Under the pieces are notes generated by a model, which was given only the letters and a program-made list of their open reading frames with translations, was not told where the DNA came from and made no database searches. Positions 48,888 through 63,842 of a stretch of 64,000 bases of DNA are shown here, piece by piece. The translations under genes and the position numbers were made by a program. Positions within the stretch are counted from its first letter, which is position 1. Each line of letters begins with the position of its first letter. Origin of the DNA: Pseudomonas putida. GTDB taxonomy: Bacteria; Pseudomonadota; Gammaproteobacteria; Pseudomonadales; Pseudomonadaceae. The stretch spans positions 3,192,001 to 3,256,000 of the forward strand of contig NZ_CP016634.1 of the NCBI RefSeq assembly GCF_002741075.1, given 5' to 3'.

Positions 48888-49205
48888 TCAACTCGATAAC
48901 TTGAGCGTGATAACGCCCAGGATGATCAACGCCACGCCAAGGTATCGCATCAGGGAGGTTGGGTCGCCATAGAAATGAATTCCGACTAAGAAAGTTCCCG
49001 CCGCTCCGATACCCGTCCACACCGCATAAGCAGTCCCAATCGGTATCTGACGCTGAGCAAGCCATAGGAAGGCGCCGCTAATTGTCATGAAAGAGACGGC
49101 TACTGCGACCCCACTCCAACGCGATGTTGGCTCTTGCGCCATTTTCAGCCCGACCGGCCATCCGATTTCAAACAATCCAGCCAAAACAAGATAGATCCAA
49201 CCCAT
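48888..49205 (-). CDS. SMR-family exporter of the Gdx/SugE type
   Basis: A 105-residue, four-helix membrane protein. It keeps the essential Glu (AGLFEIGWPVGLK, about residue 13), the Gdx-like WTGIGAAGTFLVGI stretch and a normal end (ITLKLSS). Gdx-type members export guanidinium; others export quaternary amines. It lies downstream of an EexN-like gene on the same strand. A pair of TCCGGCAT direct repeats (49232-49239 and 49246-49253) lies just before its ribosome-binding site. Confidence 0.88.
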   Translation of the reverse strand: MGWIYLVLAGLFEIGWPVGLKMAQEPTSRWSGVAVAVSFMTISGAFLWLAQRQIPIGTAYAVWTGIGAAGTFLVGIHFYGDPTSLMRYLGVALIILGVITLKLSS

Positions 49206-49263: not shown

Positions 49264-49527
49264 TTAGAACTTCGGCGGCTCTTTAGGCGTGGTGTGGGGC
49301 ACATCGCCATCTTCGTAAAAGCGCTTTCGCGTAGCCTCGGCAACCCGGTTACATAGTTGGTCGCCCAGCATTGGTCGATCCAACTTGCATTGCTTGCGCA
49401 ACTCTTTCAGACGCTCAGGATTGAGCGCTAATTCATCGACTGTCGGAAGGTTGGCTTTATCTGGTTTCCCAGATGGGCTGCAGGCTGCCAATGTCGAGGA
49501 AAGCAATATGAGAGCAATCTTCTTCAT
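49264..49527 (-). CDS. Second EexN/TrbK-like entry-exclusion lipoprotein
   Basis: An 87-residue lipoprotein (lipobox LAAC, Cys at about 16). Its core, NPERLKELRKQCKLDR, then DQLCNRVAEATRKRFYE, lines up with the trbK-like protein of the trb operon (38627-38953), including both later Cys. It is richer in Lys and in A/T-ending codons than the backbone copy. It lies outside the trb operon, between an SMR gene and a LysR gene, so it was probably acquired with the cargo. Exclusion function is inferred from the family. Confidence 0.75.
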   Translation of the reverse strand: MKKIALILLSSTLAACSPSGKPDKANLPTVDELALNPERLKELRKQCKLDRPMLGDQLCNRVAEATRKRFYEDGDVPHTTPKEPPKF

Positions 49528-49559: not shown

Positions 49560-50465
49560 TTACCGCCGACCTTTGGCATCTGGAGATTTGATCGAATGAA
49601 CGCGTTCCATGAAGCGAGTCAGCATTTCTGACGGCTCGCTGGCCGGCCGTAGTAGATAGGTCGTGAGCATTGGCGAACGTCCAGTCAGCGGCCGTGCGAC
49701 CACCCCCTGTTCCCTGCTGGCTGTGATATGCGCGCCTCCTGTGAGGCCTAGTGCAAGTCCCGCCGAAACCAGGACCATCATTAGATCGCTGGAAGTCACG
49801 CGTTCGGCAATCAGTGGCTCTATGTCCACGCGACGTAGCACCCGTTCAACTTGCCGAGCATGGCCCTCACACGCCACCGCGTCGCAGAGCACCAGCGGAT
49901 ACCGCAACAGCTCTTCTAGGGGAATCTGTTTGTGGGATAGCAAGGGGTGCCGTGCGGGCACAGCTACCATCAGAGGGTCACTCCACACCGGCACGGCGAT
50001 GATGCCTTCGCCGACTTCATCCGATTGAGCGAAGCCGAGATCGTACAGTTCGCCACACAATCCCTTGATTTGCTGTGCCAAAGGCACCTCGAAGAAGCGA
50101 ACTTCCACTTCCGGCTCTTCCTGCCGGCAGAGCGCCAACAACGCAGGCAGGCGCGATGGCGTGATTCCATCAGACAATGCAATACGGAGCTGGCAATGAA
50201 AGCCATTGGCTGCGGCGTTCACACTGTCGCGCGCCTGCTGCAAAGCTGCGAAGACACGCGGCACGCTCTCAAAGAAGAGCCTGCCCGCACGAGTCAAGCG
50301 GGTGCTCCGAGTGGTTCTCGCAAATAGCGCTACGCCCAACTCTTCCTCAAGTTCCTTGATGGCGCGCGACAGCGGCGATGTCTCTATGTGGAGGCGCTCT
50401 GCGGCTCGGGCAAAGTGCAGCTCCTCTGCCACCGCCAGAAAGTAGCGCAGGTGTCGAATTTCCAT
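49560..50465 (-). CDS. LysR-family transcriptional regulator
   Basis: A 301-residue protein from the ATG at 50465 (MEIRHLRYFLAVAEELHFAR), the usual LysR start. HTH: AAERLHIETSPLSRAIKELE. A C-terminal effector domain follows (about 90-295). It resembles the CynR/BenM-like group by general pattern only. It lies 32 bases upstream of the EexN-like gene on the same strand, and the outer-membrane factor gene ends 93 bases before it. Its targets are not evident. Confidence 0.88.
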   Translation of the reverse strand: MEIRHLRYFLAVAEELHFARAAERLHIETSPLSRAIKELEEELGVALFARTTRSTRLTRAGRLFFESVPRVFAALQQARDSVNAAANGFHCQLRIALSDGITPSRLPALLALCRQEEPEVEVRFFEVPLAQQIKGLCGELYDLGFAQSDEVGEGIIAVPVWSDPLMVAVPARHPLLSHKQIPLEELLRYPLVLCDAVACEGHARQVERVLRRVDIEPLIAERVTSSDLMMVLVSAGLALGLTGGAHITASREQGVVARPLTGRSPMLTTYLLRPASEPSEMLTRFMERVHSIKSPDAKGRR

Positions 50466-50558
50466 GTTCGCATTCCTCATCACTCAGGCCTCACCACCTT
50501 CGCCTTGCGTCACGCTATTTAGCTAGCCTTCGCAAGCTGCTCCAGCATGTTTCTGCGA

Positions 50559-51962
50559 TCAAACAGGAGAGCCGGATAATGCTTTTGCCAGGACGCCCCA
50601 TTGCATGGCTGTCTCGGCCCGCGTGCGGATCAGCGAAGCCTGCGCTGACAGCACCCCGGCCTCAGCCTCGGCCACCACCGTGGCGTCCACTTGTCCCGCC
50701 TCGAACAGACGTCGGCTGCGATCGAGCTGACGCTCCGCGACTGCGACACCCTCGGCCTGATGCTCCAGTGCTGCGTGCTGCGTATGCCAACCGAGATATG
50801 CGTTCTCTACGTCCTGCAAAGCACTCAACAAAGTGCGCTCGAACTCCGCACGGGCAGCTCGGCTGCGCGCCTCTCCGGTCTCGATGCCGGCACGGATCGC
50901 GCCACCATCGAAGATCGGCAACGACACCCCGGCCCCAAGTGAAAAAATGTTTCCAGTGATGCGGGTTCCCACACTCTCTACGCGCTGCCGTCCGCCGCTC
51001 AGGTCCAACACCAGCCTGGGGAAGCGTTCGCCTTCGGCTGCGTTCCAGCGCGCGGTTTCGGCGGCGAACTTCGCTTCGGCGGCGCGCACGTCGGGCCGCT
51101 CACTCAGCAGGTCCGCAGGTATGCGTGTCGGTGTCCAGTCCGGGACGGCGAGCGACGCAAGAGTTGGGGAAGCTGCAGGCGCTCCGGGCGTTTGTCCCAC
51201 TAGTACATCGAGTGCATGCGTCGCCTCGCCGCGCGCACGCCGCAGTTGCTCTTGCTCCACGCGCAGTGCGACGACGCCGGCGCGGGTACGCTCGATGTCG
51301 AAGCCGGTAGCTTGTCCGGCCTCGAACTTCCGTTGCATCAGCAAGACGAGTCGTTCTGCGGATGCCAGCCGCGCCGCGGCTAGCGCTTCGAGCTCACTGG
51401 CTTGGCGCTGCTGCACAGCCGCCGACACTGTTTCAAACGCGACCTGCCACCGCGTGGCAACCCACGCTTGTTCGGCTGCCACCGCATCCAGGCGCGCACC
51501 TTCTGCTGCCTGCGAAAGCCGTCCCGACAGGTCTGCCTCCCACGATGCGGACAACGTGGCGCGGCCATCATTGCCGATTGCAACGTTCTCTGAATAGTCG
51601 CGTCCTCGAGTTGCCTGCGTGCCCGCGGACAACGAGGGGAGCAGGGAGGCCCGTGCTCGCCGCGTGGCGGCCGATGCCTCGTCCACGCGCGCTCGCGCAA
51701 TCGTCAGTTCGGTATTGCGCTCCAGCGCCGCCCGGACCAAGGCATTGAGGTGCGGATCGCCGTAGGCCGTCCACCAATCGACGGGAAGAGTACGGCGGGA
51801 CGATTTGTCCAAGATGCCTTCACCTCCCTCTTCATTTGAGAAATGGGCCGGTACATCCAGGCGAGGTGGATCGGCAGAGTGCGGGGCATGGCTGCAGGCC
51901 GCAAGAAGCAGTAGCGGAGAAATCATGGCAATGAGGCGATAGCGTTCAAGAATTTGAGACAT
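50559..51962 (-). CDS. Outer-membrane factor lipoprotein of an RND pump (NodT/OprM-like)
   Basis: A 467-residue protein from the ATG at 51962 (MSQILERYRLIAMISPLLLL). It has a lipobox LAAC and two TolC-type repeats, with LPVDWWTAYGDPHLNALVRA at the start of the first. It should form the outer-membrane channel for the adaptor and RND pump encoded on the opposite strand. It shares a divergent promoter-operator region with tetR. The longer open frame to 52256 overlaps tetR and is not used. Confidence 0.9.
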   Translation of the reverse strand: MSQILERYRLIAMISPLLLLAACSHAPHSADPPRLDVPAHFSNEEGGEGILDKSSRRTLPVDWWTAYGDPHLNALVRAALERNTELTIARARVDEASAATRRARASLLPSLSAGTQATRGRDYSENVAIGNDGRATLSASWEADLSGRLSQAAEGARLDAVAAEQAWVATRWQVAFETVSAAVQQRQASELEALAAARLASAERLVLLMQRKFEAGQATGFDIERTRAGVVALRVEQEQLRRARGEATHALDVLVGQTPGAPAASPTLASLAVPDWTPTRIPADLLSERPDVRAAEAKFAAETARWNAAEGERFPRLVLDLSGGRQRVESVGTRITGNIFSLGAGVSLPIFDGGAIRAGIETGEARSRAARAEFERTLLSALQDVENAYLGWHTQHAALEHQAEGVAVAERQLDRSRRLFEAGQVDATVVAEAEAGVLSAQASLIRTRAETAMQWGVLAKALSGSPV

Positions 51963-51989
51963 GGCAGCTCCTTGCGCTCCGAAAAAGTC

Positions 51990-52043
51990 TTGACGGACTG
52001 TTGTATGGCTTCTACTATACCGTCTGGACTGTATATGACTCAA
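51990..52043. promoter_or_regulatory. Divergent promoters with a TetR-type operator
   Basis: Plus strand: TTGACG (51990-51995), 17-base spacer, TACTAT (52013-52018), reading into tetR. Minus strand: TTGAGT (52043-52038), 18-base spacer, TATAGT (52019-52014), reading into the outer-membrane factor gene. A 20-base imperfect palindrome, TATACnGTCnnGACnGTATA (52016-52035), overlaps both. One bound repressor could block both transcripts. Confidence 0.7.
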
Positions 52044-52062
52044 GCTTTTTTGGAGCACGACC

Positions 52063-52704
52063 ATGCCGCCCCGCGCGAAAACAAAGTTGCCCCCCCCGTC
52101 CACTGCCCATAGCAGCGCCGATGCGCAGCCCGGCCTCCAGCAAGGAGCCCAGCGAACTCGCGACCGCATCCTGCAGGCCGCCCGCGAACTGGTGCTGGAG
52201 GAAGGTGCCAGTCGCTTGACACTGGACGCCGTCGTTGTGCGGGCCGGGTTGAGCAAAGGGGCGTTTCTCTATCACTTCAAGACCAAACGCGATTTGTTCG
52301 TGACACTGATCGACGAGATGATCCGGGCGTTCGACGCGGTACAAGCCAATCACGAGCGCAGGTTTGCCGGAGATCCGGACCCCTGGCTGTCGAGCCAGGT
52401 GGAAGCGATGCCCGACGACGAGATGCAGAAGATGGGCGCAGCGCTGCTCGCGGCAGCTGCGGAAGATCCAACACTTCTCGACCCACTGCGCGAGTGTTAC
52501 CGCGTGCAGTACGAACGCGTGCGTCGATCCCCGCGTGGCACCGAGACCGCGGCACTCATCATGCTGGCATTGGATGGCGCCCTGTTCGCCGATCTTCTGG
52601 GTTTGCCAATACTCGCACCCGCAGAGCGGCGGCATTTCTTTCGGGCGCTCCAGGATCTCGCCTCGGGCCATCTCGAACTTGTCCCGGCAAAAGGACGCAC
52701 ATGA
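52063..52704 (+). CDS. TetR-family repressor of the efflux locus
   Basis: A 213-residue regulator. An N-terminal tail rich in Pro, Lys and Ala precedes the HTH (RLTLDAVVVRAGLSKGAFLY, then HFKTKRDLFV). The C-terminal ligand domain is TetR_C-like. It is the first gene of the plus-strand operon and its stop overlaps the adaptor start by four bases. Local control through the palindrome at 52016-52035 is the simplest model. The ligand is unknown. Confidence 0.9.
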   Translation: MPPRAKTKLPPPSTAHSSADAQPGLQQGAQRTRDRILQAARELVLEEGASRLTLDAVVVRAGLSKGAFLYHFKTKRDLFVTLIDEMIRAFDAVQANHERRFAGDPDPWLSSQVEAMPDDEMQKMGAALLAAAAEDPTLLDPLRECYRVQYERVRRSPRGTETAALIMLALDGALFADLLGLPILAPAERRHFFRALQDLASGHLELVPAKGRT

Positions 52705-53867
52705 GTCGCGTCCGTAGCGGTGTCATGACCGCGTGCGCACCGCGCTCCTTGGCGGTTGCTTGCACACTATCCATTTCGACTCTGCTCTCAGGGTGCGGAA
52801 ACTCGCAATCCACCGTATCCGAGCCTCCGCGCGCAGTGAAGCTCGCCGCCGCGCAGTCGGATCTCCCGCATAGCTCTCGCATCGAATTGACTGGCTCGGC
52901 GCGAGCAACCGAGCGCAGCATCCTAGGATTTGAAACAGGAGGACGGATCGCCAAGTTGAACGTCGACGTGGGTGAACGGTTCTCCCGCGGCCAAGTCCTG
53001 GCAGAACTTGATGCGCAACCTGACCGGCTTCGCGTGACACAAGCGCAAGCATCCCTGGCGGCCGCCGAAGCCGGCCTGATGGATCGACGTGTACAGACAG
53101 ATCAACAGCGCCGGTTGCTCGAAAGCGAAGTCATCTCCCCTGCTGCGTTCGAGAGCGCGAAGGCGCAGCTAGCGGTCGCAGAGGGTCAAGCGCGCACTGC
53201 CAAGGCGGCGCTTGGCCTGGCCGAACGAGCACAACGTGGCACGATGATCGTCGCTCCTTTCGATGGTGTCGTGGCGGAAAAGCTGGCTTTGGCGTTCACC
53301 GACATTGCTGCTGGTGCGCCGGTATTTCAGGTCGACGGCGTGCGCAGTGGCACTGAGATCATCGCGAACGCGTCTACTACACAGGCACCTCACATAGATG
53401 TCGGCCAACGCGCAGAACTGAGCTGGAGCGGAGCCGAACAACCAATCCGAGCGGTGGTACGTCGTGTCGGTCTGCGCGCCGAAAATGGCTCGCTCCTACC
53501 CGTGGTGCTAGTGCCTGAAGATAACGCGCAAGCGCGCGCACTTCGGCCAGGTATTCCCGTACAGGTCGTGCTCGACGCACCTGCGGCAACCTCCAAGACC
53601 TCTCGGCCCGAGACTGTATCCATACCTTATGCCTCGCTGGTGCTCGGCACGAAGCCGGGCGAGGCTTCCGTCTTCGTCTACACCCCTGAAGATAAGAAGG
53701 TGCACCGTCGCGCGGTGCGCTTCACGCCGGTACAGGAAGGAGACAGCGCGCGCGTCCTCGCTGGACTCAAGCCCGGCGAGACGGTGGTTGCCGCCGGAGG
53801 AGGATGGCTCACCGATGGACAGCCAGTGACACCACTGGAAGCCACCACTCAATTGACCAAGCGCTAA
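52701..53867 (+). CDS. RND periplasmic adaptor (membrane-fusion lipoprotein)
   Basis: A 388-residue protein from the ATG at 52701, coupled to tetR by a four-base overlap. It has a lipobox LLSGC (Cys at about 32), a lipoyl-like half-motif GFETGGRIAKLNVDVGERF, a helical hairpin (about 110-165) and a second lipoyl half (GTMIVAPFDGVVAEKLA). It connects the RND pump to the outer-membrane factor. RND follows after 24 bases. Confidence 0.93.
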   Translation: MSRVRSGVMTACAPRSLAVACTLSISTLLSGCGNSQSTVSEPPRAVKLAAAQSDLPHSSRIELTGSARATERSILGFETGGRIAKLNVDVGERFSRGQVLAELDAQPDRLRVTQAQASLAAAEAGLMDRRVQTDQQRRLLESEVISPAAFESAKAQLAVAEGQARTAKAALGLAERAQRGTMIVAPFDGVVAEKLALAFTDIAAGAPVFQVDGVRSGTEIIANASTTQAPHIDVGQRAELSWSGAEQPIRAVVRRVGLRAENGSLLPVVLVPEDNAQARALRPGIPVQVVLDAPAATSKTSRPETVSIPYASLVLGTKPGEASVFVYTPEDKKVHRRAVRFTPVQEGDSARVLAGLKPGETVVAAGGGWLTDGQPVTPLEATTQLTKR

Positions 53868-53891
53868 CGCGATCCACCAGGTTACTTCATC

Positions 53892-56800
53892 ATGAAGATC
53901 ACCGAGATGGCGCTGCGCGCCAGTCGACTTACCTACTTTGTAGCGCTCATCATTTTCGTCGCCGGCATCGCGACCTTCCTGAATTTTCCTTCTCAGGAGG
54001 AGCCGACTGTCACGGTCCGCGATGCGATGGTCACGGCGTTGAACCCGGGGCTGCCCGCCGAACGCGTTGAGCAACTCATTGCCCGGCCGATCGAGGAGCG
54101 CTTGCGCGAACTGGCAGAGGTCAAGCGCGTGACGAGCACCGTGCGCGCAGGCAGCGCCATGATCCAGGTCACGATCTGGGACCGCTACACCGACTTGGCA
54201 CCGATCTGGCAGCGCGTCCGGGCCAAGGTCGCCGATTCGAAGGATGCCTTACCACAGAGCACGATGGGGCCTTTCGTCGACGAAGACTTCGGCCGCGTCG
54301 CGGTTGCCTCGATTGCGGTCACTGCACCAGGTTACTCCATGAGCGAGATGCGCGTCGCGCTCAAGCAGATGCGCGACCGCCTGTACACCGTGCCTGGTAT
54401 TGAGCGCATCACTTTCTACGGCCTGCAGGAAGAGCGCGTCTATCTCGAATTCGATCGGCCTAGGCTCGCGCGATTGGAGCTGACACCACAGGGGGTGATC
54501 GACCAACTCGTCAAACAGAACGTCGTCGCTTCGGGTGGACAAATTGTTGTCGGCGGCATCAATGCAACCTTGGCGGTCAGTGGCGAAGTGCGTGACGCTC
54601 CCTCCCTGCGAGCAATGCCGATCGCGCTGCCACGACCGCAAAGTAGTACGGCGCCCGTGCCGACGATCGCATTGGGTGAACTGGCGCAGGTGAGTGTGCG
54701 GCCAGCCGATCCGCCGGAATCTGCTGCCATCTACAAAGGCCAGCCCGCTGTCGTCATGGCGGTTTCGATGGCCTCCGGTCAGAACGTGGAGCAGTTCGGA
54801 AAAGCGCTCAAAGCACGGGTTGCAGACCAGGAGAAGCTGCTGCCGGCGGGTTTCGATCTGTCATACGTCACTTTCCAGGCCGATGTCGTCAAGCACGAGA
54901 TGGGCAAAATGAACCACGTCATGATGGAGACGATCATCGTCGTCCTCGGTGTCGTCGTGCTATTTCTCGGTTGGCGCACCGGGATCATCGTGGGCATGAT
55001 CGTGCCGTTGACGATCCTCAGTGCACTCATCGTCATGCGCGCGATGAACATCGAGCTTCAGAACGTCTCGATGGGCGCCATCATCATTGCGCTCGGCTTG
55101 TTGGTGGACAACGGCATTGTGATTGCCGAAGACATCGAACGCCGCCTGGCCGGTGGCGAAGATCGTAAGCATGCCTGCCTCGAGGCGGGCCGCACGCTCG
55201 CCATTCCGCTGCTCACGTCCTCGCTCGTGATCGTGATCGTGTTCTCGCCGTTCTTTTTTGGCCAGAACGCCACGAGCGAGTATCTGCACAATCTCGTGGT
55301 CGTGCTGGCACTGACGTTGTTCGCTTCGTGGCTGCTGTGCCTGACTGTCACGCCCCTATTGTGCTACCACTTCGCCAAACCCCATCACAAGCAGGAGCAG
55401 GGCGACGCCTATGACACCCGCTTCTACCGTGGCTACCGGCGCGTACTGGAGTGGGTGCTCCACCATAAGGCGGTCTATGTAGCGTCGATGATCGCGGCGC
55501 TTGCCATTGCGCTGTATGGCTTCACCACCCTGCCGTACGATTTCATGCCCAAGTCCGACCGGCTTCAGTTCCAGATTCCGGTGCAGCTCGCCCCCGGTAC
55601 CGACTCGCGCGAAACGCTCGCCCGCGTGAAGCAGATCAGTGGTTGGCTGGGCGACACGAACATCAATCCAGAAGTCTCCGATCACATCGGCTACGTCGCC
55701 GATGGTGGCCCGCGCTTCATCCTTAGCCTGAATCCACCACTGCCGGCATCGAACATCGCGTACTTCGTTGTCACATTGAAGCCGAAGAGCGACATCGACG
55801 CCGTCCTCGCCCGCACCCGCAGCTACTTTGCGCAAGCACATGGCGACGTGCGCGCCGAGCCCAAGCGTTTCTCGCTCGGTGCGACCGAGTCAGGGACTGC
55901 CATTTATCGCGTCAGCGGTCCGGATGAGGAGGTATTGTTGGGGGCCGCGTCCAAAATCGAAGCAGCGCTGCGCAAGCTGCCCGGCACCATCAACGTCAAG
56001 AACGATTGGGATACGCGCGTTGGCCGCATCGACGTACGGGTCGACCAGGACCGCGCGCGTCGGGCGGGCGTGACGACTGAAGACATCGCTGGCGGGCTGG
56101 ATGTCCGCTACAGCGGCAGATCGATCTCGGTTATTCGCGACGGTGACACCTCCGTCCCGATCGTCCTGCGCAGTATCGTAAGCGAGCGTCGCAGCACGGC
56201 AGACGTAGGCGCGACGCTCATCTATCCCACCAACGGCGGTCCAGCGGTGACGCTGGCTCAGGTCGCAGACGTATCGCTCGCGAGCGAGCCCTCGGTCATC
56301 CAACGGCGCAATCTCATCCGCACGATCACCGTGCAAGGACAGAACACCTCTTACACCGCCCAGGAGATCATCAACCGCCTGGCGCCTAGCGTCGCTGCCC
56401 TGGACCTGCCCGCGGGCTACTCGGTTGAACTTGGCGGCGAGATCGAGGAAGCCGCCGAATCGAACGCCGCGCTGTCGACCTACATGCCCCTCGCATTTCT
56501 GGCGATGCTGATGCTGTTCGTATGGCAGTTCAATTCTTTCCGCAAGCTCGGTGTGATCCTCGCGACGATCCCTTTCACGCTTATCGGCGTGGTATTGGCT
56601 CTGAAGCTGACCGGCACACCTTTCAGCTTCATGGCGACCTTCGGCGTACTGGCCCTGTTCGGGATCATTGTCAACAACGCCGTGCTCTTGCTGGAACGCA
56701 TCGACCAGGGGCTAGCGGAAGGCCTGCCACGCCATGAAGCCTTGGTTGGGGCCGCGATACAACGGCTTCGTCCAATCGTGATGACCAAGGTCACCTGCAT

Positions 56801-56996
56801 TTCGGGACTGGTGCCACTCATGCTCTTCTCCGGACCATTATGGAAAGGGATGGCGATCGCGATGATCGGTGGGCTGGCACTCGGAACGCTGGTGACGTTG
56901 GGCTTGATTCCGCTGCTTTACGAAGTCCTGTTTGGAATCAAGCGAATTGGGCCGTGGAACCTGAGTGTCGCCACCGCGCATGGAGATCGCTCATGA
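53892..56996 (+). CDS. RND-family (HAE-1-type) efflux pump
   Basis: A 1034-residue inner-membrane pump with 12 expected helices and two large periplasmic loops (about 35-330 and 560-860). The N-terminal FLNFPSQEEPTVTVRDAMV resembles the TriC-like class, where a QNEDP-type motif replaces the AcrB start. In helix 4 the motif is LGLLVDNGIVIAE, so the second Asp of the AcrB pair is Asn. In helix 10 the Lys is Asn (FGIIVNNAVLLLE). Its stop overlaps the SMR-like start by four bases. Substrate unknown. Confidence 0.93.
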   Translation: MKITEMALRASRLTYFVALIIFVAGIATFLNFPSQEEPTVTVRDAMVTALNPGLPAERVEQLIARPIEERLRELAEVKRVTSTVRAGSAMIQVTIWDRYTDLAPIWQRVRAKVADSKDALPQSTMGPFVDEDFGRVAVASIAVTAPGYSMSEMRVALKQMRDRLYTVPGIERITFYGLQEERVYLEFDRPRLARLELTPQGVIDQLVKQNVVASGGQIVVGGINATLAVSGEVRDAPSLRAMPIALPRPQSSTAPVPTIALGELAQVSVRPADPPESAAIYKGQPAVVMAVSMASGQNVEQFGKALKARVADQEKLLPAGFDLSYVTFQADVVKHEMGKMNHVMMETIIVVLGVVVLFLGWRTGIIVGMIVPLTILSALIVMRAMNIELQNVSMGAIIIALGLLVDNGIVIAEDIERRLAGGEDRKHACLEAGRTLAIPLLTSSLVIVIVFSPFFFGQNATSEYLHNLVVVLALTLFASWLLCLTVTPLLCYHFAKPHHKQEQGDAYDTRFYRGYRRVLEWVLHHKAVYVASMIAALAIALYGFTTLPYDFMPKSDRLQFQIPVQLAPGTDSRETLARVKQISGWLGDTNINPEVSDHIGYVADGGPRFILSLNPPLPASNIAYFVVTLKPKSDIDAVLARTRSYFAQAHGDVRAEPKRFSLGATESGTAIYRVSGPDEEVLLGAASKIEAALRKLPGTINVKNDWDTRVGRIDVRVDQDRARRAGVTTEDIAGGLDVRYSGRSISVIRDGDTSVPIVLRSIVSERRSTADVGATLIYPTNGGPAVTLAQVADVSLASEPSVIQRRNLIRTITVQGQNTSYTAQEIINRLAPSVAALDLPAGYSVELGGEIEEAAESNAALSTYMPLAFLAMLMLFVWQFNSFRKLGVILATIPFTLIGVVLALKLTGTPFSFMATFGVLALFGIIVNNAVLLLERIDQGLAEGLPRHEALVGAAIQRLRPIVMTKVTCISGLVPLMLFSGPLWKGMAIAMIGGLALGTLVTLGLIPLLYEVLFGIKRIGPWNLSVATAHGDRS

Positions 56997-57424
56997 GTCT
57001 CTTGCGAGCCGCCGCGTGCTGCGCATTCTCAGAATTCGTATGCACCCACGCTTCATGCGTATGTCTCGCTAGGCTTATGCGATTCAGCACCCATCCGCTG
57101 ATCTGGAAATCCTGGTCGATTGTCATTGCCGCAGGGGTTCTAGGAGCGGGCTATCCACTGGGCCTGCGGGCCATCACGGCGGGCGGTCCGATGCGCTGGG
57201 TCGGCCTCTGTGTGGCAGTGACGTGCATGGCGGCCAGCGGCGCACTTTTGTGGTTCGCGCTCAAGCGGATTCCGATCAGCGCGGCCTCTGCAGCCTGGGC
57301 AGGAATCGGGCTACTTGGAAACTTGGGCGTCGGCGCCCTCCTACTAGGCGATGTCGCATCGGTAACGCGCTGGTCTGGCACCGCCCTCATCGCAGCAGGC
57401 ATTGCCTGTCTTAGTTTCGTTTGA
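56993..57424 (+). CDS. SMR-like small membrane protein lacking the essential Glu
   Basis: A 143-residue frame from the ATG that overlaps the RND stop; an internal ATG at 57077 would give a normal SMR size (about 115 residues). Four hydrophobic helices align with SugE/Gdx proteins (SGALLWFALKRIPISAASAA, then WAGIGLLGNLGVGALLLGD). The essential Glu of the first helix is replaced by Gly (AGVLGAGYPLGLR instead of AGLFEIGWPVGLK). It cannot work as a normal H+-coupled SMR, and may be an accessory or lipid-related four-helix protein. Translational coupling suggests it is made with the pump. Confidence 0.75.
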   Translation: MSLLRAAACCAFSEFVCTHASCVCLARLMRFSTHPLIWKSWSIVIAAGVLGAGYPLGLRAITAGGPMRWVGLCVAVTCMAASGALLWFALKRIPISAASAAWAGIGLLGNLGVGALLLGDVASVTRWSGTALIAAGIACLSFV

Positions 57425-57439
57425 TCAAGGAGACCCATT

Positions 57440-58060
57440 ATGAAGAGCAAAACTGCATTGATCCGCGGCGGCATCTTTTTTTGCGTAGCAGGCGCGCTCT
57501 CTGGATGCGCGACCAACAGCATGACGCGCTCCGGATTTCTCGGCGACTACGAGAAGTTATCGCCGACACGATACGAGAACGTACTGATGTACCGCGCAGC
57601 GGGATTCGAGCCCAAGCGTTATGCCGCTGTCGTGGTGGAAGAAGCGCAGATCAAGACCGCCTCGGGTCGCATCGATGGGCTCGATGACGCGCAGCAGCGC
57701 GAAGTGCTAGACCATGTGACGAGCGAACTGAAACGCCAGGAAGGCAAAAGTCCCGCCCCCCCAGGTGGCGCGGGACAGGTTCGGGTGCGTGTAGCGGTCA
57801 CCGAACTGCAGACACCGAATCGGGCAGTCAATGCAATGACGACCCTGCTGGTTGGACCCGTGACGACGGGTGGTGCCAGCCTAGAGTTCGAAGCAGTCGA
57901 TTTAAGGACGGGACGCCGGGTTGCTGCCGCCAGTTGCTTCGAGCGCGGCAACGTCATTAAAGAGTTCGCCGGTTCGTACACATTGCTGGGTCATGCCAAA
58001 GCGGCGATCACGAACTGCATCGAGCGCATCGACAGCGCTTGGCGGGACACGCAGCCATGA
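57440..58060 (+). CDS. DUF3313-type lipoprotein
   Basis: A 206-residue lipoprotein (lipobox ALSGC, Cys at about 26) with a DUF3313-like mature part: FLGDYEKLSPTRYENVLMYR and, near the end, ASLEFEAVDLRTGRRVAAAS. DUF3313 proteins often occur beside MCE-type transporters and are of unknown function. It is 15 bases after the SMR-like gene and overlaps the MlaE-like gene by four bases. A periplasmic or outer-membrane role in the lipid module is inferred. Confidence 0.8.
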   Translation: MKSKTALIRGGIFFCVAGALSGCATNSMTRSGFLGDYEKLSPTRYENVLMYRAAGFEPKRYAAVVVEEAQIKTASGRIDGLDDAQQREVLDHVTSELKRQEGKSPAPPGGAGQVRVRVAVTELQTPNRAVNAMTTLLVGPVTTGGASLEFEAVDLRTGRRVAAASCFERGNVIKEFAGSYTLLGHAKAAITNCIERIDSAWRDTQP

Positions 58061-59214
58061 GCAACGCTTCACAGGCTTGGCTCCGGCAGGATGCCATGGT
58101 CGGCGGTGATCACAAATGGCTGGCGGGTGGCGACTGGACGATAGAGCACTACGCCAGTCTGGCAAAATCCGTGTCCGCCGCCCGCATCAGTCATGCCGAG
58201 GGGTACGCCACTCCCTTACTCGACTGGACGCAAGTCCAGAGACTGGACACCGCCGGCGCGGCTCTGCTGGTGGAAATTCTCGGGCCAGACTCGATACTCG
58301 ACCGGCCGGAGGCAGCTCCAAATCTGTCCTCGGATCGCCTCGCCCTAATGAGAGCGCTGGCCGCCGCTGCTACCGATCAGCAGAAGACGGAGAAAGCAGC
58401 GGTGAGCGGGAATCCTCTGCTCCGCGGTCTGGGACGCATAGGCCTGACCTTGGAACAGGGCTGTCGTGCGTGTCTTGGTCTGGCCGGGTTCGTGGGCCAG
58501 ATCATCGAAACATGGAGCCGTACCGTTCGTCACCCGCGTCGCTGGCGCGCGACCTCGGTGATCGCTCAAATCCAGCGATCAGCGGTGGACGCCATTCCCA
58601 TCGTGGCGCTACTGAGCTTCATGGTAGGAATGGTGGTGGCGTTCCTGGGAGCAACGGTGCTGGCCAACTTCGGTGCGAGCATCTTCTCGGTGCATCTGGT
58701 CGCCTTCTCGTTCATGCGCGAGTTCGGAGTGCTGCTCCCGGCCATATTGATTGCAGGCCGTACCGCAAGCGCGTACACCGCCCAAATCGGTTCGATGAAG
58801 GCAAATGAAGAGATCGATGCGCTTCGCTCCAACGCGCTCGACCCCATCGAGTTACTGGTGCTGCCACGCGTGCTGGCGCTTCTTGTGTCCTTGCCACTGC
58901 TCACCTTAGTAGGCATCTTGGCTGGCATTGCGGGCGGCGCCACCGTATGCGCACTGAGCTTGGAAATTCCTCCCGCACAGTTCCTTGCCATCGTGCAGGA
59001 AAAAATCGAGGTGCGCCATTTTCTTGTCGGAATGAGCAAGTCCCCGCTCTTCGCGGTGATGATCGCCGCTATCGGCTGCCATGAAGGGTTCAAGGTCGCC
59101 GGTAGCGCTGAGTCGGTAGGCGACCACACGACGTCTAGTGTCGTGCAATCAATCTTCATGGTGATCCTGATAGACGCCATCGCTGCACTGTTCTTCATGG
59201 AGATGGGCTGGTGA
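58057..59214 (+). CDS. MlaE-like permease with N-terminal STAS domain
   Basis: A 385-residue protein. The first about 110 residues resemble a STAS domain (LLDWTQVQRLDTAGAALLVE), and the remainder is an MlaE/YrbE-type permease with five or six helices, including FLGATVLANFGASIFSVHLV and the GRTASAYTAQIGSMKANEEI coupling region. In MlaFEDB the STAS protein (MlaB) is separate; here it is fused. It carries the lipid or hydrophobic substrate across the inner membrane. It overlaps both neighbours by four bases. Confidence 0.9.
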   Translation: MSNASQAWLRQDAMVGGDHKWLAGGDWTIEHYASLAKSVSAARISHAEGYATPLLDWTQVQRLDTAGAALLVEILGPDSILDRPEAAPNLSSDRLALMRALAAAATDQQKTEKAAVSGNPLLRGLGRIGLTLEQGCRACLGLAGFVGQIIETWSRTVRHPRRWRATSVIAQIQRSAVDAIPIVALLSFMVGMVVAFLGATVLANFGASIFSVHLVAFSFMREFGVLLPAILIAGRTASAYTAQIGSMKANEEIDALRSNALDPIELLVLPRVLALLVSLPLLTLVGILAGIAGGATVCALSLEIPPAQFLAIVQEKIEVRHFLVGMSKSPLFAVMIAAIGCHEGFKVAGSAESVGDHTTSSVVQSIFMVILIDAIAALFFMEMGW

Positions 59215-60032
59215 GCGCGGTGAAGCAAGACACCGACAACGGTGTGCGACACGCTATTGAAGTGCGCGGCCTGGACAACAGGTTTGGAACCCAGCAGGTC
59301 CATCAGGACCTAGACCTGGACGTGCGGCGCGGGGAAATCCTTGGCGTGGTGGGAGGGTCAGGCACCGGGAAATCCGTGCTCTTGCGTAGCGTCGTCGGGC
59401 TGCAGAAGCCGCATTCGGGCGTGGTCCGTATCGGGGGGCGCGACCTACTGCGAGCCCAATGGCTTGCGCGCGCGCGTATGGAGCGAAGGTTCGGCATTCT
59501 GTTCCAGAAGGGCGCGTTGTATTCATCGCTGACCGTCTTGGAGAACGTCGCTCTTCCTTTGATCGAGCATGTCGGTCTGGCGCGGCCTCTTGCCGAGCGT
59601 TTGGCAAGAAGCAAGCTGGGCTTGGTGGGGTTGCCTGCCGGAGCGGGAGACAAGTATCCGGCCTCGTTGTCCGGAGGCATGGTGAAACGAGCAGCACTGG
59701 CGAGAGCCTTGGCGCTTGATGCGAACATCCTGTTTCTTGACGAACCCACCGCAGGACTGGATCCAATCGGGGCTGCATCTTTCGACCAATTGATTCTGAC
59801 CCTGCGCAATGCACTGGGCCTCACGGTGTTTCTGGTAACCCACGACCTCGATACGCTGTACACCATATGCGACCGTGTCGCGGTCCTGGCGAACCAGAAG
59901 GTACTCATCAACGACGGCATCGAGGCAGTCGAGCGCTTCAAGCACCCGTGGATACAGGAATACTTTCACGGCCCCCGTGGCCGTGCGGCCGCACAGGCCA
60001 CTGGTGCTTCCAGCCAAGAGACGCAGCCATGA
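59211..60032 (+). CDS. MlaF-like ABC ATPase
   Basis: A 273-residue ATPase starting at GTG (59211), which overlaps the MlaE-like stop (GTGA). Walker A GGSGTGKS is at about 48-55, the ABC signature is LSGGMVKRAALARALA and Walker B is ILFLDEPTAGLDP, with the H-loop in LVTHDLDTL. It supplies energy to the MCE transporter. Its stop overlaps a 30-residue ORF. Confidence 0.95.
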   Translation: MSAVKQDTDNGVRHAIEVRGLDNRFGTQQVHQDLDLDVRRGEILGVVGGSGTGKSVLLRSVVGLQKPHSGVVRIGGRDLLRAQWLARARMERRFGILFQKGALYSSLTVLENVALPLIEHVGLARPLAERLARSKLGLVGLPAGAGDKYPASLSGGMVKRAALARALALDANILFLDEPTAGLDPIGAASFDQLILTLRNALGLTVFLVTHDLDTLYTICDRVAVLANQKVLINDGIEAVERFKHPWIQEYFHGPRGRAAAQATGASSQETQP

Positions 60033-60121
60033 AACCCCTCCGCATCTGCATCATTCTTCCGTCGCGCACGCATTGGGCTGGGCGCACGCAATATTTAAAC
60101 TCTGAGAACGAGGTGGTCTGA
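60029..60121 (+). CDS. 30-residue ORF bridging the MlaF-like and MCE genes
   Basis: An ATG at 60029 overlaps the ATPase stop (ATGA), and the frame ends two bases before the MCE ATG. The product begins MKPLRICIILPSRTHW and ends SENEVV; it has no recognisable domain. The tight fit with both neighbours suggests a translational relay or a shrunken gene. Whether it is made as a stable peptide is unknown. Confidence 0.35.
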   Translation: MKPLRICIILPSRTHWAGRTQYLNSENEVV

Positions 60122-60123
60122 TC

Positions 60124-61053
60124 ATGGAACCACGTGCCCATCATGTATTCATTGGTCTGTTCGTCGTGCTGCTCGGTGCGATTGGTATTGGCTTCGCGCT
60201 TTGGCTCAGCGACACACGTTCCGACCACGATTACCAGTATTACCGGATTATGTTCGATGAGCCAGTGACCGGGCTTACGCCCGGCAGCCAGGTTCAGTAC
60301 AGCGGAATCACGATTGGCGAAGTCGTTGCACTTTCTCTTTCACCGCGAGACCCAAGGCGGGCGATAGCGCGCGTACGCATCAATGCCACCATCCCGGTCC
60401 GGCAGGATACCCGCGCTGAATTGGTCATCACGGGAATTACCGGCAACGCGGTGATCGAGTTGAGCGACGGTGGGCCAAACGTGCCATTGCTGGATCGGAG
60501 AGAGGACGAGGAACCGTTGATCCTCGCACCACGTTCGGCGATGGCATCCCTGGTCTCCGGTGAGGGGAACAGCATGACGACACTCAACGGCATCTTGCTG
60601 CGCACGCAGGAGTTACTGTCGAAGGAGAATTTGGCTCTTGTGCACCGCAGTCTGGTGAATCTTGAACAGACCACGGGCGCGGTCGCTGACCAGAGGGCCG
60701 AGATCGCGACGTTAATCAGCAATCTGACCGAAGCAAGCAGAGAATCGACAGCTGCCGTGCGCCAAGCAAATAGCACTCTTCGCGATGCCAACCTGCTACT
60801 AAATAACGATGGTAAGCAAATCATGGTGAACACGCGTGATGCAACGGCATCCCTCGAACGCGCCGCTTTCAGGGTTGAGACGCTACTGCAAAACAATCAG
60901 GAATCGCTGAACCAGGGCTTGGCCGCCACAGGTCCTGCCATGCACGAACTCCAGCAGGCGCTGGCCAATCTAAACACCGTGCTGCGCCGACTGGATCGCA
61001 ATCCGGCGCAATACCTGCTCGGTGGAGAGAACATTGAGGAAACCAAGCCGTGA
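60124..61053 (+). CDS. MCE-domain (MlaD-like) protein
   Basis: A 309-residue protein with an N-terminal membrane anchor (about 10-30), one MCE domain (VQYSGITIGEVVALSLSPRD, then VITGITGNAVIELSDGG; about 40-125) and a long helical C-terminal part (about 145-290), much longer than in E. coli MlaD. The helices could form a periplasmic tunnel. It works with the MlaE- and MlaF-like genes as an MCE transporter. GAGGTGG precedes the ATG. Confidence 0.9.
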   Translation: MEPRAHHVFIGLFVVLLGAIGIGFALWLSDTRSDHDYQYYRIMFDEPVTGLTPGSQVQYSGITIGEVVALSLSPRDPRRAIARVRINATIPVRQDTRAELVITGITGNAVIELSDGGPNVPLLDRREDEEPLILAPRSAMASLVSGEGNSMTTLNGILLRTQELLSKENLALVHRSLVNLEQTTGAVADQRAEIATLISNLTEASRESTAAVRQANSTLRDANLLLNNDGKQIMVNTRDATASLERAAFRVETLLQNNQESLNQGLAATGPAMHELQQALANLNTVLRRLDRNPAQYLLGGENIEETKP

Positions 61054-61745
61054 ACACTTCCGCCAGGATGATTCCCGTCGCTGCCGTGACTATGACGCTA
61101 GTACTCGGCTTGTCCGCGTGCAGTGTGCTTCCCAAAGCAGCTCCAATGGTCACCTACAAATTGCCCGACTATCACATCGCCCAGGCGGAGAGTACGCCGC
61201 GCGCCGTTCCGGGACCCGGGGCGCTGCGCGTCTACGCCCCTGAGAGTAGTCGCGTCCTGGATTCGGAGCGGCTGTTCATTGCGCAGCCCGATGGTCGCTT
61301 GTCGGCTTGGCAAGGAGTGCGTTGGGCCGACCCCGCACCGGTGCTGCTGCGTGACCGAATCGTCGAAGCCTTCATGCGCGATGGGCGGTCGACTTCCGTG
61401 ATTACCGATAGCACCCCAATGAGCGCCGATATGGAGTTGCGCAGTACGCTGCGGGCGTTCCAGCTCGAATACCGCGGCACTGAAGCGATCGCCGCGGTTC
61501 GGCTCGATGTGCAACTGGTCGATCCGGCCAAACGGACTGCTATTGCCAGTAGACGCTTCGAAGCAATCCAAGCCACAGGCAGCAAGCGAGAGGCCGATGT
61601 GGTGAGCGCGTTCGGTGTCGCCACGGATATATTGGCCGGGCAGATCGTTGAATGGGCAGTTCAGGTCGGGGCAGCGCGTTTGCGAGTTGCACCGGAATTG
61701 GCAAGCAACCATGCACCCACAGCGTCGTCGATAAGCACAGACTAG
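61050..61745 (+). CDS. ABC-type transport auxiliary lipoprotein (PqiC-like)
   Basis: A 231-residue lipoprotein starting at GTG (61050), overlapping the MCE stop. It has a lipobox LSAC (Cys at about 25). The mature part contains YKLPDYHIAQ and LRVYAPESSRVLDSERLFIA, typical of the auxiliary lipoprotein family that includes PqiC/YmbA. It probably links the MCE assembly to the outer membrane. It is the last gene of the operon; no clear terminator lies before the convergent relaxase. Confidence 0.85.
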   Translation: MNTSARMIPVAAVTMTLVLGLSACSVLPKAAPMVTYKLPDYHIAQAESTPRAVPGPGALRVYAPESSRVLDSERLFIAQPDGRLSAWQGVRWADPAPVLLRDRIVEAFMRDGRSTSVITDSTPMSADMELRSTLRAFQLEYRGTEAIAAVRLDVQLVDPAKRTAIASRRFEAIQATGSKREADVVSAFGVATDILAGQIVEWAVQVGAARLRVAPELASNHAPTASSISTD

Positions 61746-61811: not shown

Positions 61812-63815
61812 CTACGGCCCCGATCCAATCCCAGGACCTCTTTGCCGTCCAACCTCCCATGACACACCGCCGCCGCGTACAGTCGCGGCGATCTGCTGCC
61901 CCAGTCGTGGCTCGATTATCGGCCGCCAAGGCACCAGACTGAATCCCATGCCGTCATCGAGCAGCGCATAGCGACCGCTGGCGAGCATGACCGAGCGCCG
62001 GTAGATGCCGGCTACGCGCTGCCCGTCTGTGACGTGCCGATGCTCCAATCCGCTATCGGCGGCAATGTGCTGGGCGGCCTGCGCCAGCTCCCGATTGCGC
62101 AGCGTTTCCAGCAGATTCCGGGAGAGAATCAGCCGCTGCCCGCGCCGCTGGGCCAGCCCCTGTTCTTCGAGGAAGTCGGCGCGCTGCTGCAAGGCTTGCC
62201 TAGCATCGCCGCCAAAGCCCAGGTCGCCCAGTCCCTTGCCGCCGCCGATCAACTGCTGATCCAGCCAGGTCGCGCCGATGACGCGGGCCTGCCGTTCAAT
62301 CGGCAGATGCGATTTCAGTTCGACCGCCACGCCGCCCAGCCGCTGCGCGTCGTACTGGCGGCCACGCTCGGCCAAGTCGTCCGGCACCTTCCATAACCCC
62401 TCGGCCACGCGCTCCACGATGCCGGCCCGCCGTAGGGCTTCCAGCCGGCGGATATGGGCCGCCACAGCCTCTTGCGGGTCGCGGCCGGGCTTGGCTCGGC
62501 CTTGCTCGATCGCCAGGTGGTGATCGGTGCGGTACAGGCCATTGCTCGCCAGCGTGGCGATGTTCTTGTCGGCCGCCCGCACCTCGGCGGAACCGCGTAC
62601 CTCCACCACCGCGCCGATGGGATAGTTCGCCAGCTCGTCGCGGGCGTCCAACGCGACGTAGTGGGCTTTGCCGTCCAACCCGTCGATGACCAGATAGCCG
62701 CGGTCGTGCAGCTCGTCGGCCAGACCCTTAGCAGCCACGCGACCGACGATAGTGCGGCCGTCGTCGCCCGGCTCGAACACCGCCAGCTCGCGAGGCTTGC
62801 CGCTCATGGCCCGCTGCATCGTTCGGATGATGTCGCCACGCTCGCCCAGGGCACGCAAGGTCTTCTCCGCGTCCGCATGGACGGCCCAGGTGCCGGGCTG
62901 CACCTCGTCGGCCAGGCCCAGGCGCTGCAAGTGTTGCAGGCGGCCGATCAGCAGCAGGCGCTGGCGTTGCAGCCGGGGTTCGTTGAAGCGTTCGATCTGC
63001 ACCCGGCCATCCTCGCCGGCCTCGCGCTGCAACGTGCGGTCGAGGCTCGTCCACCGCTCTTGCTCCACCTCGCGCTGCAAGGTCTGCTGGATCTCCAGTT
63101 CGGTGCGCGGCCCCAGCCATTCCGTCGCCAGCTCGGCGGCGCGATGGCGGAAGCCGTGGGCGATGTAGTCGCCCGCGATGATGAGGTCTTTGCCGGTATC
63201 GTCGCGTCCGCGCACGATCAGGTGCGTGTGCGGGTTGTCGGTGTTCCAGTGATCGACCGCCACCCAATCCAGCCGCGTCCCCAGGTCGGCCTCCATCCGG
63301 TTCATCAGGTGCCGGGTGTAGGTGCGCAGGTCGTCCAGCTCCGCACTGTCTTCAGGTGAGACGATGAAGCGGAAATGATGTCGGTCGTCCTGGCAGCGTT
63401 CCTTGAAGGCATCGAGGTCGGCTTCGTCGGTCTGCGGCCCGTAGGCACGGCCCGGCTCGCCGTTCCGGCCGGCACCGTCGCGCTCGATGTAGCGCAGGTG
63501 CTTGGCGAGCGACTGCGGACTGGCGTTGCGCTGGTTGACCAGCAGCGTCTTGATGGTCACGCGCCGTGACATAGGGGTCAGCTTTGCGCCTGCGAAGCGC
63601 GCCGCCGTATGGCCGCGTCCAAGCCGTGAGCCGGGCCGCTGGCCGGCGTGCTGGCCGCTCCCGCCAGCGGTAGGACGGCGCACCGCCGACTTGCCGCCGC
63701 TGGCCTTGCCAGCCTGCTTGAGCACCTTGGAAACGAAGCTCTGGCCCTGGCCTTTGCCTCGGTTCTTCGGCGCGCCAGGGCGCACCCAGAAATCATGGTC
63801 GCCGCGGTCGGTCAT
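61812..63815 (-). CDS. Conjugative relaxase (TraI/VirD2-like, DUF3363)
   Basis: A 667-residue relaxase from the ATG at 63815, which has AGGGAG eight bases upstream; the open frame beyond is not needed. The N-terminal 80 residues are basic. The relaxase core has KTLLVNQRNASPQSLAKHLR, the metal-binding motif DDRHHFRFIVSPED and HWNTDNPHTHLIVRGRDDTG (histidine triad). The C-terminal part is DUF3363. It nicks oriT and pilots the DNA strand. It is the backbone gene on the far side of the cargo and converges with the lipid operon. Confidence 0.93.
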   Translation of the reverse strand: MTDRGDHDFWVRPGAPKNRGKGQGQSFVSKVLKQAGKASGGKSAVRRPTAGGSGQHAGQRPGSRLGRGHTAARFAGAKLTPMSRRVTIKTLLVNQRNASPQSLAKHLRYIERDGAGRNGEPGRAYGPQTDEADLDAFKERCQDDRHHFRFIVSPEDSAELDDLRTYTRHLMNRMEADLGTRLDWVAVDHWNTDNPHTHLIVRGRDDTGKDLIIAGDYIAHGFRHRAAELATEWLGPRTELEIQQTLQREVEQERWTSLDRTLQREAGEDGRVQIERFNEPRLQRQRLLLIGRLQHLQRLGLADEVQPGTWAVHADAEKTLRALGERGDIIRTMQRAMSGKPRELAVFEPGDDGRTIVGRVAAKGLADELHDRGYLVIDGLDGKAHYVALDARDELANYPIGAVVEVRGSAEVRAADKNIATLASNGLYRTDHHLAIEQGRAKPGRDPQEAVAAHIRRLEALRRAGIVERVAEGLWKVPDDLAERGRQYDAQRLGGVAVELKSHLPIERQARVIGATWLDQQLIGGGKGLGDLGFGGDARQALQQRADFLEEQGLAQRRGQRLILSRNLLETLRNRELAQAAQHIAADSGLEHRHVTDGQRVAGIYRRSVMLASGRYALLDDGMGFSLVPWRPIIEPRLGQQIAATVRGGGVSWEVGRQRGPGIGSGP

Positions 63816-63842
63816 GGCTGTGCTCCCTGCAAGCTCCGGCGT

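Follow-up and report, generated by a model that had tools for sequence, protein, structure and literature searches.

Judged by its gene content, the cassette described here carries an RND efflux pump and an MCE lipid transporter side by side under a single predicted switch, on a mobile element. It lies in the window (the whole stretch of Pseudomonas putida DNA that was analysed, 64,000 nucleotides). The reading that we prefer, and to which we give an even chance, is that a Tn4371-family ICE carries, in its cargo slot, an envelope-tolerance operon made of two modules that cooperate yet are separable. The initial annotation had proposed a mobile tolerance cassette whose co-regulated halves would expel a membrane-damaging compound and repair the outer membrane, an interpretation that is plausible and partly supported.

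All ten genes listed in that annotation were recovered in the same order and on the same strands using open reading frames and Pfam and TIGRFAM profiles, and the observation was right. A lipoprotein outer-membrane factor (OMF) of the NodT/TolC family is encoded on the minus strand (50559-51962; TIGR01845 above cut-off, PF02321, lipobox). The start at 52256 given by its longest open reading frame was rejected, as the frame begins at 51962, also in annotated copies. Beyond the divergent OMF/tetR regulatory region (51963-52062), the plus strand encodes a TetR-family regulator (52063-52704; PF00440, PF17937), a lipoprotein RND periplasmic adaptor (52701-53867; TIGR01730 above cut-off, lipobox), the RND permease (53892-56996; PF00873), an SMR-like protein (57077-57424; PF00893), a DUF3313 lipoprotein (57440-58060; PF11769), an MlaE-family permease (58057-59214; PF02405, TIGR00056 above cut-off), an MlaF-like ATPase (59211-60032; PF00005), a single-MCE protein (60124-61053; PF02470, structure model) and a PqiC-like (ABC_trans_aux) lipoprotein (61050-61745; PF03886, lipobox). 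These genes had been described as joined mostly by four-base overlaps, which with the starts used here holds for four of the eight plus-strand junctions, the others being gaps of 24, 80 (RND/SMR), 15 and 91 bp (MlaF/MCE). Annotators disagree on the starts of the tetR, adaptor and PqiC-like genes, so that two of the overlaps hinge on which start is used. The gene arrangement is not due to chance, because a close-relative scan of genome contigs found the 11.2-kb block at 10 loci with 97-100% identity. At locus L024, from P. putida GM4FR, the cassette is identical to that of the window.

The placement of this locus on an ICE was borne out when the window and its right flank were compared with plasmid NZ_CP010360.2. 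Genome and plasmid share 46,995 bp (plasmid 32793-79787) between differing flanks, with the left end at window position 33728 and the right end 16.7 kb beyond the window; the portion inside the window is 33728-64000. The DNA left of 33728, which is absent from the plasmid copy, was taken as host chromosome. The shared stretch includes an annotated 'site-specific integrase' (plasmid 78405-79604), and this is a discrete integrated element with an integrase of its own. Window and annotated copies together give the order integrase ... RlxS-like relaxase, variable region, TraR, TraG and Trb, the core order of Tn4371-family ICEs as defined in the available part of PMC2789088. Identified in the window were TrbI (34268-35548; NCBIfam), the TraG coupling protein with the trb genes next to it (44358-46355, minus strand; order matching annotated copy L009), a SugE-type SMR protein as cargo upstream of the cassette (48888-49205, minus strand; PF00893), a LysR-type regulator (49560-50483, minus strand; Pfam) in the place that the same part of PMC2789088 gives to TraR, and a DUF3363 relaxase (61812-63941, minus strand; PF11843) forming the right border of the cargo slot. 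The cassette fills this slot. Near-identical copies in many hosts imply past transfer only.

The pump half encodes permease, adaptor and OMF of an RND tripartite system together (PF00873, TIGR01730, TIGR01845). In a phmmer search of PDB the permease best matched MexK (500 bits), 6vej (460 bits), which we take to be TriC, MdtB (212 bits) and AcrB-type proteins (about 195 bits), and its closest paralogue in the host is 31% identical. The nearest solved permeases belong to the MexJK and TriABC systems of P. aeruginosa; the window cassette differs from both in including an OMF gene and in its TM4 and TM10 motifs. The canonical proton relay of HAE-1 permeases consists of DD in TM4 and K (or R) in TM10, but the window protein and nine aligned relatives (36-60% identity) carry VDN in TM4 and NN in TM10. 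Among the host RND paralogues in the alignment, five have VDD with R or K and two have VDG without a K. A further RND, counted on a plasmid, falls at 60-80% identity. Since the permease is without the DD and K of AcrB, AcrB-like working cannot be assumed. By analogy the pump probably expels toxic compounds, with a substrate suggested by those of its relatives. SMR transporters have an essential glutamate in TM1, which sequence comparison found absent from the SMR-like protein of the window and of the 97% lineage and present in the SMR of the sister ICE and in the SugE-type protein at 48888; the SMR-like protein looks inactive.

The remaining genes make up a type I MCE ABC system, with an MlaE-type permease, an MlaF-type ATPase with intact Walker A, signature, Walker B and H-loop motifs, a TM-anchored single-MCE protein and an auxiliary lipoprotein. 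The model of the MCE protein has a TM helix at residues 4-31, an MCE barrel at 37-135 and a C-terminus that is helical at low confidence. The MlaE protein is 53-59% identical to others within the order, and 58% to the host's own copy (G000:C2:179439-180503). Scanning the ten cassette proteins gave neither MlaC nor MlaA, the partners of the Mla system proper. A separate MlaB (STAS) gene is absent from the cassette, and the window MlaE protein had no Pfam match to STAS at E<=0.01, a STAS match being found in one homologue. By analogy this machine probably carries lipids from one cell membrane to the other. Chromosomal type I operons have the same four genes (MlaE-MlaF-MCE-PqiC), but compared with these operons, Ttg2 and LinKLMN, the MCE genes of the window are mobile and lie downstream of an RND pump. 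A toluene-resistance operon of P. putida is classed as MCE type I in the available part of PMC5561183.

Structure prediction gives a clue to the DUF3313 protein, whose lipoprotein family has no known function. Its AlphaFold2 monomer model (pLDDT 82.7) is PelC-like by both Foldseek and VIA-align 2, and this predicted fold together with the N-terminal lipobox gives it the features of a PelC-type lipoprotein. Besides PelC, the fold searches matched PqiC and also, for example, CsgG, LptE and TraT. A role as dedicated MCE partner was rejected, as the sister ICE has DUF3313 without MCE genes and DUF3313 lies near RND genes in two (L123, L124) of 20 neighbourhoods fetched from 54 places listed.

A promoter scan of the OMF/tetR divergence gave TTGACG at 51990 with TACTAT ending at 52018, and a second promoter-like site that overlaps it on the opposite (OMF) strand. 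Just past the -10 site, and inside the site on the OMF strand, is a TetR-type palindrome, ACCGTCTGGACTGT (52019-52032), the sole site of the window with 0-1 mismatch. It is kept as ACCGTCCAGACGGT in the sister ICE, whose RND and TetR proteins are 81 and 56% identical to those of the window, and we infer that it is a TetR-type operator. A terminator or internal promoter after the RND gene had been named beforehand as evidence against a joint operon. Outside coding sequence, the consensus scan found no plus-strand terminator-like site and no plus-strand promoter-like site other than the one upstream of tetR; it is weak evidence, with counts of promoter- and terminator-like sites not above those of shuffles, and it could have missed promoters within the 80-bp RND/SMR and 91-bp MlaF/MCE gaps. 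Co-transcription from tetR to the PqiC-like gene would be consistent with these results. They bear on a rival explanation, which we consider rather unlikely, that two independent neighbouring cargo modules were separately selected, the MCE genes having their own promoter. The failure to find a second plus-strand promoter-like site argues against it, as does the tight spacing of the genes with the 4-bp overlap between DUF3313 and MlaE.

Plasmids offer evidence on both sides of this question. The MCE-type locus was found in 88 PLSDB records, of which 49 have pump DNA, 38 an internal deletion and one an IS truncation, and plasmids of Salmonella, Klebsiella, Enterobacter, Citrobacter and P. aeruginosa carry the cassette with little change. 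Two deletion alleles, one in 11 and the other in 27 records, with breakpoints within tetR and the SMR-like gene, have lost the pump and kept the OMF gene, promoter region, DUF3313 and MCE genes. Recombination between the two pumps was rejected as their origin, the breakpoints lying outside the best-conserved pump region and the joint of deletion A having ~2 bp in common. A sister pump is present on the same plasmid in 36 of the 38 deleted copies vs. two of the 49 others, an association that traces back to two deletion events and to plasmids spreading clonally. The sister ICE itself has the same pump block with a gene for a patatin-like phospholipase, expected to act on lipid, in the place of the MCE genes. 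A patatin-like lipase was also found in genome G937. A universal RND-patatin pair was rejected, a 52% patatin relative on a Variovorax plasmid having no RND annotated within 9 kb.

The halves are thus separable: in 39 of the 88 plasmid copies the MCE half remains while the pump is deleted (38) or IS-cut (1), and the sister ICE has the pump without MCE genes. Both the deleted copies and the patatin replacement favour independent modules. However, both deletions leave the DUF3313-MCE genes attached to the promoter region of tetR, and the two halves occur together in the 49 plasmid records with pump DNA and, as the whole cassette, in the 10 genome loci. Pairwise dN/dS values between two ICE lineages are low for genes of either half (RND 0.087, MlaF 0.077, MCE 0.060, PqiC 0.127, MlaE 0.146) and higher (0.31-0.40) for the adaptor, SMR-like and DUF3313 genes. 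For the proposal of a mobile co-regulated cassette, one mobile unit, one predicted promoter/operator region, compact co-directional genes and these low ratios are in its favour, while separability counts against it.

Outside these ICEs the two systems are rarely joined, and a widespread conserved RND-MCE operon was rejected. Neighbourhood searches found them joined in these ICEs and sporadically elsewhere, and the outcome that the initial annotation named as refuting, that they are never joined, did not arise. No MlaE or MCE relative was present in 18 neighbourhoods of RND relatives (fetched from 23 found, 33-60% identity, about 8 kb each side where the contig allowed), three of which had some ABC ATPase. 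An RND gene lies within about 10 kb of five of 72 chromosomal MCE loci, close to the about 3.5 expected from a rough chance estimate that takes other genomes to resemble the host, whose 5.8 Mb contain about 14 RND genes; this too favours independent modules. One of the five, L134 (genome G817), has a co-directional MarR-adaptor-RND-MlaE-MlaF-MCE-PqiC array, but none of the 25 further orthologous RND loci fetched from its family has a MlaE or MCE relative (1/26 beside MCE).

Related elements have been described. ICETn43716041 (P. aeruginosa 2192) and ICETn43716035 (Congregibacter litoralis), which the available part of PMC2789088 credits with an 'RND type multidrug efflux pump', are the same kind of element with the cargo slot between relaxase and TraR/TraG. 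Compared by description, they differ in that this part of PMC2789088 mentions no MCE genes for them and the paper's text contains neither 'toluene' nor 'ABC transport'. ICETn43716041 may be the same element as the window ICE. A search for literature linking ICE, RND and MlaE found none, and among the titles and abstract openings listed for Tn4371 with MCE, Mla, patatin or RND, drawn from a collection with few subscription journals, none describes this locus. To our knowledge, the TMexCD1-TOprJ1 cluster, likened to the window pump by description as a mobile RND pump, has no MCE genes. This cluster is reported from Klebsiella in the available part of PMC7064769, and the part of PMC9537497 to hand places solvent-tolerance RND pumps on Pseudomonas megaplasmids.

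The MCE system might alternatively import or handle a hydrophobic compound, as linKLMN does with hexachlorocyclohexane (HCH), while the pump clears excess or toxic products; we regard this as improbable. The linKLMN genes comprise permease, ATPase, MCE protein and lipoprotein, a make-up that the window set resembles. Consistent with such a role, the available part of PMC5561183 describes an MCE operon of type I in Sphingobium japonicum as essential for HCH uptake and use, and that of PMC3715732 cites linKLMN as giving protection from lindane toxicity and mentions mutants of ABC systems alongside a dependence on MexAB-OprM. However, no catabolic gene was seen among the ORFs scanned between TraG and the relaxase, and the presence of the cassette on plasmids from clinical and food sources gives no hint of a catabolic role. 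More speculatively, and with only slight probability, the locus would not be a drug pump with a helper at all, and would be one of the alternative designs of a single coupled trans-envelope system for lipid extrusion and remodelling. The pump substrate would then be a membrane lipid or lipid-like amphiphile, with MCE feeding or taking back lipid in the window ICE (ICE A), the patatin-like lipase making or clearing lysolipid in the sister ICE (ICE B) and G937, and outer-membrane rings of DUF3313 and PqiC-like proteins docking the machines.

In the two-module operon that we prefer, a TetR-type repressor bound at the OMF/tetR divergence would hold down the OMF gene and a long tetR-adaptor-RND-SMR-DUF3313-MlaEF-MCE-PqiC transcript until a hydrophobic or amphiphilic toxicant lifts repression. 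The toxicant would be expelled by the MexK/TriC-like pump through its own adaptor and OMF, and the MCE ABC transporter, of the type with single-MCE protein and PqiC-like lipoprotein, would shift phospholipid, or some other hydrophobic compound, from one membrane to the other, restoring the barrier. The halves would assist each other and function apart, the MCE half having persisted pumpless mostly where the sister pump is present. The natural pump-deleted and lipase-bearing versions make it directly testable whether the MCE half helps the pump. If pump and lipid transporter do cooperate, horizontal transfer would move a regulated package that both rids the cell of membrane-active agents and preserves its envelope, so that tolerance at the envelope may spread as a unit.

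Pfam and NCBIfam searches assigned to the ten genes of the cassette (window 50559–61745, ~11.2 kb) the products, order and positions proposed in the initial annotation: an outer-membrane factor (OMF) gene on the minus strand, then on the plus strand tetR, adaptor, RND, SMR-like, DUF3313, MlaE, MlaF, MCE and PqiC-like genes. The DUF3313 and PqiC-like proteins were assigned by Pfam only. Sequence inspection identified a lipobox in the OMF, adaptor, DUF3313 and PqiC-like proteins, and MlaF possesses the Walker A, signature, Walker B and H-loop motifs. The description of the junctions as mostly four-base overlaps is half true, since four plus-strand junctions overlap by 4 bp while the other four have gaps (24, 80, 15, and 91 bp). 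SMR transport needs a glutamate in TM1. This residue is absent from the SMR-like protein (window 57077–57424) in both lineages of the window's ICE that were compared (that of the window and a second, the 97% lineage), and is retained by the SMR protein of a sister ICE (L014, L032) and by SugE at window 48888. Between SugE and a LysR regulator lies a small lipoprotein gene (window 49264–49527), annotated as EexN in plasmid copies, for which a Pfam search gave no match.

The 100-bp gap between the OMF gene and tetR contains a promoter-like sequence on the tetR strand (TTGACG-17-TACTAT), an overlapping promoter-like site on the OMF strand and, directly after the −10 site of the former, the palindrome ACCGTCTGGACTGT. 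The sister ICE has a perfect palindrome, ACCGTCCAGACGGT, at the same position. At up to one mismatch this palindrome is the sole site in the window; at two mismatches there are four matches, a number reached by 28 of 100 shuffles. Promoter matches in the region were about equal to those of shuffles (3 vs. 2.4) and terminator matches were fewer (6 vs. 8.0), so the regulatory sites are backed by position and conservation rather than by count. The initial annotation had held that a terminator after the RND gene would speak against a single unit; the plus-strand terminator-like matches (57395, 58855, and 58862) all fall within coding sequence. Judged from its sequence, the cassette is probably co-transcribed.

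Comparison with plasmid p35734 (NZ_CP010360.2) revealed a single shared stretch of 46,995 bp, covering part of the window and its right flank, with differing flanks on both sides. This sets the chromosome/ICE border at window 33727/33728, with the ICE extending to 16.7 kb beyond the window end. ORFs examined to the left of 33728 include those for HtpG, a chemotaxis protein and Kdp proteins, and this DNA is taken as host chromosome. The shared stretch encodes trb genes, TraG, the cargo, a DUF3363 relaxase, ParA, a replication initiator, a ParB-family protein, RadC and a site-specific integrase. On sequence grounds, the trb, TraG, relaxase and integrase content and the position of the cargo assign the element to the Tn4371-family ICEs, as the proposed location on an ICE implied; the cargo occupies the slot between relaxase and TraR/TraG that is described for this family (PMC2789088). 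The portion of that article available to us credits the ICE of P. aeruginosa 2192 with an “RND type multidrug efflux pump” and makes no mention of MCE genes for it.

Among solved permeases, the RND protein (window 53892–56996) scored highest with MexK (500 bits) and 6vej (TriC, 460 bits), and far lower with MdtB (212 bits) and AcrB-type permeases (~195 bits). It carries VDN in TM4 and NN in TM10, as do the sister RND and nine aligned relatives of 36–60% identity; five host paralogs combine VDD and an R or K, and a further two carry VDG and no K. As this clade departs from the proton-relay residues of AcrB-type pumps, the protein was not classed with them. At E ≤ 1e-165, 24 of 398 genomes of the phylum, including the window's own, encode a relative, and in most of 18 fetched neighborhoods only the adaptor accompanied it, by the probes used. 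One genome (G937, RND 57% identity; L092:1048–10186) has consecutive genes for OMF, TetR, adaptor, RND, a pyridine-nucleotide oxidoreductase and a patatin-like lipase; TraG and relaxase relatives were sought in the 16.5 kb fetched and no Tn4371 gene was recognized.

The MCE half is a type I set of the ordinary kind. Its MlaE has chromosomal relatives (53–59%) in 11 of 23 genomes within the order (E ≤ 1e-50), and one in the host. The MCE protein was modeled as a TM helix followed by a confident MCE barrel and, at low confidence, a helical C-terminus. The model fits, but does not show, a C-terminal bridge to a PqiC-like outer-membrane partner of the kind expected for Pqi (PMC10897342). A rival to a repair role is that this system imports or handles hydrophobic compounds.

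A paired-gene search found no general linkage of RND and MCE genes. Of 72 MlaE neighborhoods fetched outside these ICEs, 47 had MlaF, MCE and PqiC without RND, 20 had MlaF and MCE with PqiC undetected and no RND, and five also had an RND neighbor, close to a rough chance estimate of 3.5. A second RND–MCE junction does exist in G817, as a tight co-directional set of MarR, adaptor, RND, MlaE, MlaF, MCE and PqiC genes (L134:5947–15404), but MCE genes were absent from the 25 other fetched RND loci orthologous to it. Three genomes of one genus (L133, L136, and L157) have an RND gene ~2 kb upstream of, and in the same orientation as, the MCE operon. In two genomes belonging to different families, RND pump genes have a gene for a distant DUF3313 lipoprotein nearby (L123:8652–9329 and L124:8370–9332).

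The cassette is real and mobile. Scanning genomes with the RND protein as query, a search limited to close relatives, gave ten loci, all of them the whole cassette at 97–100% identity, in Pseudomonas, Stutzerimonas, Achromobacter and two MAGs labeled Sphingomonas and Comamonadaceae. The best segments of the eight proteins checked there were free of stops, with the MlaF match of one locus (L017) beginning only at residue 76. DUF3313 proteins close to the window's were found in 5 of 398 genomes of the family, including its own, and 369 genomes of the class gave five matches (the window's own and four remote); members of the Pfam family as a whole are more frequent (42 of 299 phylum genomes). Among 72,556 PLSDB records, 98 matched the 11.2-kb query (44 at ≥99%, 44 at 95–99%, and 10 at 60–80%), and in 49 of them a single site covers ≥80% of the query. 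The adaptor/RND probe also matched 49 records; among the matches listed, the RND match was incomplete in at least two, MT732188 (residues 319–1034 only) and CP042479 (97%, split in two pieces).

The halves are separable, which qualifies the claim of one mobile locus and counts for the rival view of pump and MCE modules as loose neighbors; the ten whole copies speak for the single locus. The MCE-type locus occurs in 88 PLSDB records: 49 with pump DNA, 11 with deletion A, 27 with deletion B (38 records at 80% coverage minus the 11 of deletion A) and one, NZ_OP378668, in which the cut adjoins an IS1411 transposase gene and the MCE half is retained. Both deletions run from mid-tetR into the SMR-like gene, removing adaptor and RND and retaining the OMF gene, promoter region, DUF3313 and MCE genes. 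Deletion A leaves tetR truncated; deletion B forms a single open frame of 162 aa fusing the TetR DNA-binding part to the SMR-like end (L013:9506–9994). In E. coli, the locus was found in 2 of 5,426 genomes, both lacking the pump and both among the deletion records.

The sister ICE carries OMF, tetR, adaptor, RND, SMR and DUF3313 genes (RND 81% and DUF3313 63% identical to the window's), with a patatin-like phospholipase gene in place of the MCE genes; the OMF is annotated in two pieces in L014, and IS66-type genes precede the patatin gene in L032. Its block occurs in 49 PLSDB records (48 at ≥80% coverage, one at 77%): 36 of the 38 deletion records (A 11/11; B 25/27, excepting CP147600 and CP147592), two of the 49 with pump DNA (CP042479 and CP042518, each 243,455 bp) and 11 without an MCE-type locus. 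Fisher's test of deletion against sister block gives 1e-19, a value that counts clones of two deletion events only. Our reading is that the pump copy is dispensable once another pump is present, and the MCE half, missing from the sister, is retained. Pump loss because two pumps together are harmful, or chance deletion followed by plasmid spread, would explain the association too.

Compared with L200 of the 97% lineage (L022 values being nearly identical), dN/dS was 0.06–0.16 for RND, OMF, TetR, MlaE, MlaF, MCE and PqiC, and 0.31–0.40 for adaptor, SMR-like and DUF3313, on few changes. Cassette dS (0.03–0.16) is below that of relaxase and TraG (0.19–0.29), which would fit exchange of much of the block between backbones since their divergence. 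In comparison with the sister ICE the pattern is opposite, cargo sharing 48–81% and backbone 88–90% protein identity, which would fit two old cargo versions on related backbones.

Among the papers listed in our literature searches, none described the pump-plus-MCE cassette as such; known parts are newly combined in it. A joint function, expelling a compound and repairing the membrane, is the leading reading, with about even chances of being correct. What these ICEs carry is one particular assembly, which has been retained, moved and pruned.
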